Shown here: positions 62,123 to 63,188 of the stretch, in pieces
Numbering within the stretch: position 1 is the first letter of the stretch
How the letters are laid out: every line of letters begins with the position of its first letter
NCBI RefSeq assembly: GCF_024359545.1
Contig: NZ_JAKQZG010000009.1
Span: 1 to 64,000, forward strand
Source: Jiella marina
Lineage (GTDB): Bacteria > Pseudomonadota > Alphaproteobacteria > Rhizobiales > Rhizobiaceae
Length of the DNA stretch: 64,000 bases
Reading direction: 5' to 3'
Position numbers and translations under genes: made by a program
The notes under the pieces: model-generated
Seen by the model: only the letters and a program-made list of their open reading frames with translations
Databases searched by the model: none
What the model was told of the DNA's origin: nothing

Positions 62123-62260
62123 GTCATCCTCGGCCCGCAGGGACGGGGATCCATGCCTCTGTCTTCGCACTCCGCTTCGGTGCAGAAGAGGCGCCTATCC
62201 GGCACCGAAATGCCGCTCAGCCGGCGAGGCATGGATCCCCGTGCTACGCACGAGGATGAC
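62123..62260. repeat. Palindromic element, copy A
   Basis: 138 bases with near-complementary ends: both arms share GTCATCCTCG and CGGGGATCCATGCCTC around a variable 9-11 bases. A second copy in the same orientation is at 62671-62809, so the pair flanks the GIY-YIG gene. It resembles a MITE or REP-type element. Confidence 0.75.
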
Positions 62261-62314
62261 GAAGCGGTGGGGTCTATCTCTGTTCGAAGGACCGCCGGCG
62301 GCGCCGTTGCGCGC

Positions 62315-62602
62315 CTACCATCCCCAGCCGCGGTAGAGTTCCTCCCATTGCGGGTTCATGCCCTCGATCAGCGCGATCTTCTTCGCCCGGGACCATTTCT
62401 TCAACGCCTTCTCGCGGGCGATAGCGTCGCGAATGTCGAAGTGCTCCTCGTACCAGACGAGACGCTTGCAGCCGTAGCGGCTCGTGAAACCCTTCGTGAT
62501 CTCGTTCTTGTGCTCATGGACGCGCCGTCCAAGATCCGACGTCACGCCGATATAGAGCGTGCCGTTCCTTTGACTCGCCATGATGTAGACGTGCCCGGCC
62601 AT
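62315..62602 (-). CDS. GIY-YIG nuclease family protein
   Basis: A 95-residue YhbQ-like protein. The GIY-YIG core is VYIMASQRNGTLYIGVTSDL, with Arg in LGRRVHEHKNE, YEEHFDIRDAIAREKALKKW and the C-terminal NPQWEELY. The start MAGHVYIM is preferred over an upstream in-frame ATG. It lies between two copies of a palindromic element, 54 and 68 bases away. Small GIY-YIG genes of this type are often associated with repeats in alphaproteobacteria. Confidence 0.9.
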   Translation of the reverse strand: MAGHVYIMASQRNGTLYIGVTSDLGRRVHEHKNEITKGFTSRYGCKRLVWYEEHFDIRDAIAREKALKKWSRAKKIALIEGMNPQWEELYRGWGW

Positions 62603-62670
62603 GGCGCGAGCGTTGCGTGCGGCGGTATCGCCGTCAAGGATGTTCCGCACCGACGCAACACCAACACTCC

Positions 62671-62809
62671 GTCATCCTCGACCCGCAGGGTCGGGGATCC
62701 ATGCCTCTTCGGTTCTGCTACAGATTCGGTGGAGAACAGGCACCTTTCCGATACCGAAACGCCGCTCAGCCGGCGAGGCATGGATCCCCGTGCTGCGCAC
62801 GAGGATGAC
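62671..62809. repeat. Palindromic element, copy B
   Basis: 139 bases with the same arms as copy A (62123-62260) and a partly conserved centre (CGCCGCTCAGCCGGCGAGG occurs near the right side in B, and a close match in A). Same orientation as copy A. Confidence 0.75.
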
Positions 62810-62981: not shown

Positions 62982-63188
62982 TCAGACCTCCATGAAACGG
63001 GCCTGACTGACCGGGGCCGGGACCGCGATCCCGTCTTCTGCAAGCCCATCGAGATGAAACCGGATGGCTGAGGCAATCTCGCGCTCAGCCTCCTCAAGGG
63101 TCGCAGCCGTCGCAATGCAGCCGGGAAGGTCGGGGACGTAGGCCGCATAGTTGTCACCAGCTTTTTCGATTACCACGGCGTATCGCAT
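62982..63188 (-). CDS. HicB-family antitoxin-like protein
   Basis: A 68-residue protein with the HicB partial-RNase-H fold: MRYAVVIEKAGDNYAAYVPD then LPGCIATAATLEEAEREIAS. No DNA-binding tail and no HicA toxin gene is seen on either side, so it is an orphan. Such orphans occur widely as neutral regulators or remnants. Confidence 0.85.
   Translation of the reverse strand: MRYAVVIEKAGDNYAAYVPDLPGCIATAATLEEAEREIASAIRFHLDGLAEDGIAVPAPVSQARFMEV

Follow-up and report, generated by a model that had tools for sequence, protein, structure and literature searches.

The window, the 64,000-nucleotide stretch of DNA analysed here, carries a small GIY-YIG nuclease gene between two palindromic elements, E1 and E2, with the following features.

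62123..62260, plus strand: palindromic element E1 (REPIN-like, two inverted hairpin arms, 138 bp; DNA fold z -7.70)
62123..62153, plus strand: E1 left arm, GTC-hairpin-CCA, ACCC/GGGT-type stem with substitutions (weakest fold, z -1.41)
62232..62260, minus strand: E1 right arm, GTC-hairpin-CCA, GTGC/GCAC-type stem
62315..62602, minus strand: small GIY-YIG nuclease gene (ATG start 62602, alternative GTG start 62650; PF01541, E=1.3e-17)
62671..62809, plus strand: palindromic element E2 (REPIN-like, 139 bp; DNA fold z -7.59)
62671..62701, plus strand: E2 left arm, GTC-hairpin-CCA
62781..62809, minus strand: E2 right arm, GTC-hairpin-CCA

The gene is intergenic, encodes about 95 amino acids and, with the ATG start, is separated from E1 and E2 by gaps of 54 and 68 bp, as described in the initial annotation of a GIY-YIG gene flanked by two 138/139-bp palindromes in the same orientation. 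It is the sole small GIY-YIG gene found in the 5.08-Mb window genome, where the second PF01541 match is a 774-residue open frame that is probably UvrC. Which of the conserved GIY-YIG residues are catalytic is general knowledge for the superfamily, and in an alignment of 141 family members, including that of the window, residues Y4, Y15, R25, H29, E62 and N81 were conserved at 97% or more. The active site of the window nuclease, as judged from these putative catalytic residues, is intact. Membership of a named NCBIfam family was rejected, with the group I intron type homing endonuclease TIGR01453 scoring 22.2 bits against a cut-off of 56.05, as was membership of a named anti-phage defence family, for which PADLOC gave only a weak UzuA match (E=0.027). 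The sole match in a PHROGs profile search was the homing endonuclease phrog_5123 (E=0.00096), and the solved UPF0213 structures 1zg2 and 1ywl matched with E=0.0017 and E=0.015. A HicB-like antitoxin gene (PF15919, E=8.3e-13) lies at 62982-63188 on the minus strand, with no HicA partner recognised among the few neighbouring open reading frames scanned; a REPIN of the window's type (type A, below) is also found near the matching gene in genome G193.

E1 and E2 are 86% alike across their full length, and each consists of two inverted hairpin units of the form GTC-AT[stem-loop]AT-CCA. The arms had been described as near-perfect inverted repeats, which holds for their perfect outer (12 bp) and inner (16-17 bp) blocks and fails for the divergent middle between them, where left arm differs from right. 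As the left and right middles are nevertheless each self-complementary, each arm is itself a hairpin (CTCGACCC-gca-GGGTCGGGG and CTCGTGC-gca-GCACGGGG), the left unit with an ACCC/GGGT stem and the right with a GTGC/GCAC stem, both with substitutions. This two-stem design is kept in the six complete copies read in the window genome (E1, E2, one on contig C38, two on C13 and one on C1). When the whole elements were folded as single-stranded DNA, none of 200 shuffled sequences was as stable as either E1 or E2; the single arms gave z scores of -1.41 (E1 left), -3.83, -3.12 and -3.05.

Placement of the elements in the window genome

About eight elements of this kind are present in the window genome, of which six are complete, one is divided between two contig ends and one is a lone arm. 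The strict arm-type pattern matched 11 times genome-wide, four of these inside E1 and E2, and the generic arm pattern matched 31 times, with no match to the reversed control pattern. In a genome of 5.08 Mb, two of eight elements would come to lie within 75 bp of a single gene with a probability of about 2e-8, an estimate that assumes uniform placement and ignores the preference of the elements for intergenic DNA. Five further REPINs in the same genome have another stem type, GTCATCCCGGCCTTGAGCCGGGATCCA; no nuclease matching them was found in the window genome, making them orphan elements. They lie at:

C3:104596-104732
C3:106393-106529
C12:453656-453790
C40:207212-207343
C41:150079-150214

Two contig ends in this genome (C12:560073-560102 and C2:1-124) carry complementary pieces of one palindrome, and the assembly seems to break inside it.

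Enrichment of hairpin units at one GIY-YIG subfamily

Nuclease matches were present in 66 of 190 genomes sampled across the class (1 to 11 each). From the 123 class matches outside the window, 109 were taken as loci; the 14 left out comprised 13 weak, partial or broken matches and one of full length (G064:C173). Across the 109 loci, hairpin units occurred at 3.96 per kb within 100 bp of the gene, compared to 0.12-0.19 per kb at a distance of 2-6 kb. When hairpins with any perfect 8-bp stem were counted without regard to the GTC and CCA ends, their density was 3.80 per kb near the gene against 0.38, and 60 of the 107 near hairpins found in this way were bordered exactly by GTC and CCA. At subfamily loci, defined by at least 65 bits to the window protein (n=94), a unit lay within 250 bp of the gene in 50 cases, compared to 3.6% of 3267 control positions chosen at random in the same loci. 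Units were found on both sides at 29 of these 94 loci (control 0.03%), with opposite orientation in 26 of the 29 (binomial p=8e-6). Eighteen of the 26 have GTC outermost, so that the gene occupies the place of the REPIN spacer; the window arrangement differs, with the gene between two whole REPINs.

The idea that any GIY-YIG gene attracts hairpins was ruled out, as only one of 15 distant GIY-YIG genes (<65 bits) had a unit within 250 bp, and two of 15 within 400 bp. With the strict motif, no unit is found within 250 bp at 44 of the 94 class loci; variant ends account for some of these, and others may really be without a unit. In a separate phylum-wide draw, which included other classes, 14 of 27 new loci had a unit within 450 bp, at least one of which (L222) looks like a chance match. 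Palindromes that were frequent and randomly placed with respect to GIY-YIG genes, the outcome that the initial annotation had named as contrary to its proposal, were ruled out by the genome-wide and class-wide counts: the elements are few in the window genome, and they concentrate at one GIY-YIG subfamily in that genome, in its genus, in the class and at part of the loci elsewhere.

Correspondence of nuclease type and hairpin stem

The window's genus contains several nuclease types, of which type A is that of the window. Type A units read GTCATCCTCGRCCC.../GTCATCCTCGTGC..., type B units are GTCATCCCGGCCCCCGAGCCGGGATCCA-like and type C units carry GTCATTCTCGGGCCCCGTCCCGAGAATCCA; the type D gene has no unit in G198 and one unit in G192. 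All four types occur together in G192, each beside a different stem (that of type D from its one unit). The cognate relationship was tested with the 82 genes that have near units, out of 141 tested, in 58 genomes, with locus L220 left out. Stem identity was 0.96-0.98 for the 32 pairs from different genomes with at least 80% protein identity, and 0.64-0.68 for 47 same-genome pairs at 50-70% protein identity, no better than between genomes. The overall correlation was weak (Mantel rho 0.17) and was reached by none of 500 permutations, the match fading below about 70% protein identity.

The 32 close pairs comprised 14 of type A, 10 of type C, 6 of type B and 2 from elsewhere, 30 of them from the window's genus. 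Types B, C and D lie in conserved synteny within the genus, so that for the 16 pairs of types B and C the stem match is partly a matter of descent. Eleven type-A pairs at different places still share the stem, with a mean identity of 0.95 (lowest 0.88). These comparisons suggest that the stem follows the nuclease type, close relatives sharing it across genomes and same-genome paralogues not, and we regard nuclease and hairpin as very probably a cognate nuclease-target pair.

Repeat number also varied with the presence of the gene. Strict type-A arms numbered 11, 5, 5, 12 and 9 in genomes with a type-A gene and 1, 0, 3, 1 and 0 in genomes without (exact one-sided p=0.004), and 26 of the 42 arms in the five gene-bearing genomes lie within 800 bp of the type-A gene. 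Type-C arms numbered 24, 22, 14, 69 and 23 with the gene and 1, 0, 5, 34 and 9 without (p=0.048). The 34 type-C arms of G195, an assembly with no type-C gene, speak against a simple gene-repeat rule; several of these matches lie within about 650 bases of a contig start, and it is possible that the type-C gene of G195 is on a lost assembly piece. Type-C units have divergent spacers and a near-constant length (119-130 bp, with 13 of 21 units at 128). As 20 type-C regions were chosen by an exact arm pattern, their arm identity is given by construction and it is the spacers and the length that are informative.

Two further observations concern multiple copies. Genome G123 has 11 nuclease-family matches, several of them flanked by clearly different stems, making it a good natural test set for specificity. 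In G192, the end of C7 and the start of C27 carry two slightly different type-A copies at contig ends (L202 and L203), the outer flanks of which match the two sides of a single G194 locus; they are probably a tandem pair across an assembly gap.

Changes of place of the gene with its repeats

With the same repeat, the type-A gene was found at three non-syntenic places in the genus: the cupin/HicB locus of the window, a place common to G195 and G196, and another common to G192 and G194. Synteny was judged from 2 to 7 kb of sequence on either side of the gene, and from shorter flanks near contig ends. In eight congeners the cupin gene is present with no nuclease within 1.5 kb, and the cupin locus of G196 has two type-A REPINs without the gene.

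In Azospirillum lipoferum 4B, a 507-bp REPIN-nuclease-REPIN unit lies between sufB and sufC and is absent in all five aligned relatives, the closest of which are 95-96% identical. The sufB-sufC alignment gave no base-precise junctions and no evident target duplication. Base-precise REPIN insertion sites were also sought in alignments of type C and type B loci, where presence and absence were visible and the junctions blurred. By alignment, Shinella sp. PSBB067 carries a different nuclease type with another repeat in the sufB-sufC gap, where its record is unannotated, and the annotation of Sphingomonas parapaucimobilis places a DUF559 gene under a match in this gap. The gap is a possible insertion hotspot (L397, L408).

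The suggestion that the composite unit could spread with its palindromes is supported by the non-syntenic type-A positions and by the empty site in relatives of Azospirillum, which indicate that the cassette changes place; we consider it highly likely to be mobile. As vehicles, phages were rejected (the nuclease was present in none of 50,697 phage records), as were plasmids in the main role (33 of 72,556 plasmid records, several of them chromosomes or megaplasmids by length).

Homologues beyond the class

Members of the family were seen in Alpha-, Beta- and Gammaproteobacteria; in addition, one plasmid each from Bacteroidota and Cyanobacteriota carries a homologue that has related repeats next to it. 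The homologue in Neisseria gonorrhoeae is 58% identical over 86 amino acids (104 bits) and sits among GTCATTCCCGCG..CGGGAATCYA units. On the 2.17-Mb N. gonorrhoeae record, which is filed as a plasmid and is a chromosome by length, there are 63 strict repeats, eight of them within 900 bp of the homologue, compared to about 0.06 expected if they were uniform. The 28-nt Neisseria-type repeat also occurs in records labelled as many phyla (at least 116 stretches), a good part of which are contigs of metagenome-assembled genomes and possibly misbinned. A nuclease homologue was found at 5 of the 80 loci read among these stretches, in three cases within 30 bp of the repeat.

Ten named genomes yielded 12 homologues of at least 65 bits, seven with a unit within 250 bp and five without. 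Those with a unit were in N. gonorrhoeae, Nitrosospira, Rickettsia rhipicephali (one of two), Sphingopyxis (one of two), Lysobacter (two of two) and Altererythrobacter (one of two); neither of the two Flavobacterium homologues had one within this distance. Ten of the 33 plasmid-collection records were opened, and nine of them were scanned for units, six of which had a unit (Rhizobium, N. gonorrhoeae, Azospirillum, Aeromonas, Sinorhizobium and Photobacterium) and three of which did not; Novosphingobium pNL2 had no unit by the GTC-hairpin-CCA motif. Beside the homologues of Planktothrix and Spirosoma, inspection by eye showed related GTCAT palindromes that end differently. On Planktothrix agardhii plasmid p1 (L396) the homologue has an MmeI-type restriction enzyme on one side and the DISARM helicase drmA on the other.

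A proposed nuclease and target as a probable minimal mobile cassette

We consider it likely that the window carries a site-specific GIY-YIG nuclease which, with its own hairpin target, forms a minimal mobile cassette, REPINs being the gene-less relatives. The gene would encode a small site-specific nuclease with the hairpin unit GTC-AT[stem-loop]AT-CCA as its target, and four target copies, as two inverted pairs, would then lie directly beside it, with different nuclease types pairing with different stems. The target is probably read as a folded single strand, by analogy with the Ssn nucleases (below), with a single-strand hairpin as the substrate. Gene and flanking targets together would make up the cassette, to which the dispersed palindromes could stand as MITEs do to a transposon, and cuts repaired from REPIN-bearing DNA may spread the elements.

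This reading draws on the observed architecture, the enrichment at the gene, the nuclease-to-stem correspondence, the greater number of repeats where the type-A gene is present and the changed position of the cassette; cleavage of the hairpin by the window nuclease and its preference for single strands are inferred. Since the same gene-repeat pairing, with different enzyme types and different repeats, recurs in many bacteria, it suggests that the nuclease acts on the repeats and that both travel together as a tiny mobile unit. That the nuclease itself drives the spread is possible, though we would lean slightly the other way. The initial annotation had proposed that the nuclease cuts near the palindromes, which fits the matching of nuclease to stem and the intact active site, with cleavage being putative; if the biochemistry reported for Ssn applies, a single-stranded hairpin is a likelier substrate than the double-stranded cruciform that it proposed.

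A resident single-strand nuclease might instead cut incoming or replicating DNA at the repeats and so shape gene exchange, in a housekeeping or barrier role; the repeats would then serve the cell as marks, and the cassette would not be a selfish element. We give this a real, if minority, chance, as the homology to the Neisseria protein with the same kind of repeat and the syntenic types B, C and D speak for it; the patchy presence across the class with up to 11 matches in one genome, the coexistence in one genome of nuclease types with different repeats, and the unit inside the suf operon argue against it. It is improbable that the GIY-YIG genes are bystanders in repeat-rich intergenic DNA, with the repeats moved by another enzyme (such as a RAYT-type Y1 transposase) or acting as ordinary terminators or RNA elements. 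Orphan REPINs do exist and REP/RAYT systems are a known precedent for such elements, but the units are about 25-fold concentrated at the gene when counted by motif, or 10-fold when hairpins of any kind are counted, they are placed on two sides in inverted orientation and nearly absent around other GIY-YIG genes, and their stems match the nuclease. Least probable is a structure-specific resolvase that cuts the double-stranded cruciform regardless of sequence, as first proposed for this locus, since the invariable GTC and CCA ends, together with stems that differ by nuclease, suggest that sequence is read, and the nearest units at some loci are single arms without a partner nearby, very stable though the palindromes are.

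Returning to the cassette of nuclease and target, genomes with several paralogues show which stem pairs with which nuclease, and they therefore offer a first list of candidate sequence-specific hairpin nucleases, the specificity of which might be readable from the flanking DNA.

Comparison with known systems

Bacterial genomes commonly contain REP-like palindromes, and the REP/REPIN elements that go with RAYT transposases are a known precedent for paired inverted hairpin repeats. To our knowledge, it is unclear what moves such palindromes where no RAYT is evident; the gene-repeat pairing described here supplies each repeat type with a candidate enzyme and can be tested directly. The likeness to REP/REPIN systems lies in paired inverted hairpins that form a longer palindrome, a constant short 5' motif, the multicopy state, a gene flanked by its own repeats and the existence of orphan copies. 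The differences are that the window enzyme is a GIY-YIG nuclease, whereas RAYT is a Y1 HUH transposase, and that GTC takes the place of the GTAG-like 5' motif of REPs. GIY-YIG enzymes hydrolyse DNA without a covalent intermediate so, if the nuclease drives movement, joining would have to come from host repair or recombination, unlike RAYT. We entertain tentatively, at somewhat less than even confidence, a second, RAYT-independent class of REP system, in which tiny GIY-YIG nucleases would each read and cut their own hairpin and thereby mobilise the gene-bearing cassette and gene-less REPINs; if so, dRS3/NTS-type and 'GTCATNCC...GGNATCCA' repeats would be parasites or domesticated tools of the nuclease around which they lie. 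In the main text of the RepRanger survey of REPs, the words 'RAYT' and 'nuclease' have no occurrences (PMC12306157). Among the matches listed in our literature search, and as judged by the listings, there was no paper on GIY-YIG genes beside REP, RAYT, dRS3, COG2827 or intergenic palindromes.

GIY-YIG homing endonucleases (TIGR01453, phrog_5123) share the catalytic domain, but the window protein scores far below the TIGR01453 cut-off, its small gene is intergenic and flanked by repeats, and no target gene is interrupted. The small UPF0213 proteins (1zg2, 1ywl) have the same domain as the window nuclease. GIY-YIG genes distant from that of the window (<65 bits), which may include UPF0213 members, are mostly without flanking hairpins (one of 15 with a unit within 250 bp).

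The closest likeness is to the homologue of N. gonorrhoeae, which we take to be Ssn, a site-specific single-strand GIY-YIG nuclease. Ssn reportedly cuts single-stranded DNA at NTS repeats (Chenal, Veyrier and colleagues, 2025), and its homologues reportedly number in the thousands and differ in specificity. In Neisseria, cleavage at the repeat reportedly shapes gene exchange, with Ssn modulating natural transformation. The window pair resembles this family in its small GIY-YIG protein, in which the catalytic residues are kept, and in having multiple copies of a GTC-hairpin-C(C/T)A repeat gathered around the gene, both here and in Neisseria. Unlike Ssn with its NTS or dRS3-like repeats, the repeats here are paired in inverted orientation and the two stems of a pair differ, gene and repeats change place together, and one genus holds several nuclease-repeat pairs. 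With intact catalytic residues, homology to the Neisseria protein and a multicopy hairpin repeat concentrated at the gene, the window pair has the features of the Ssn family, as far as sequence can tell, and probably represents an alphaproteobacterial nuclease of the Ssn type that is packaged together with its target in a minimal mobile cassette. To that family it would add inverted two-stem targets, the coexistence of several nuclease-repeat pairs within a single genus, and a cassette of gene plus target that changes place.
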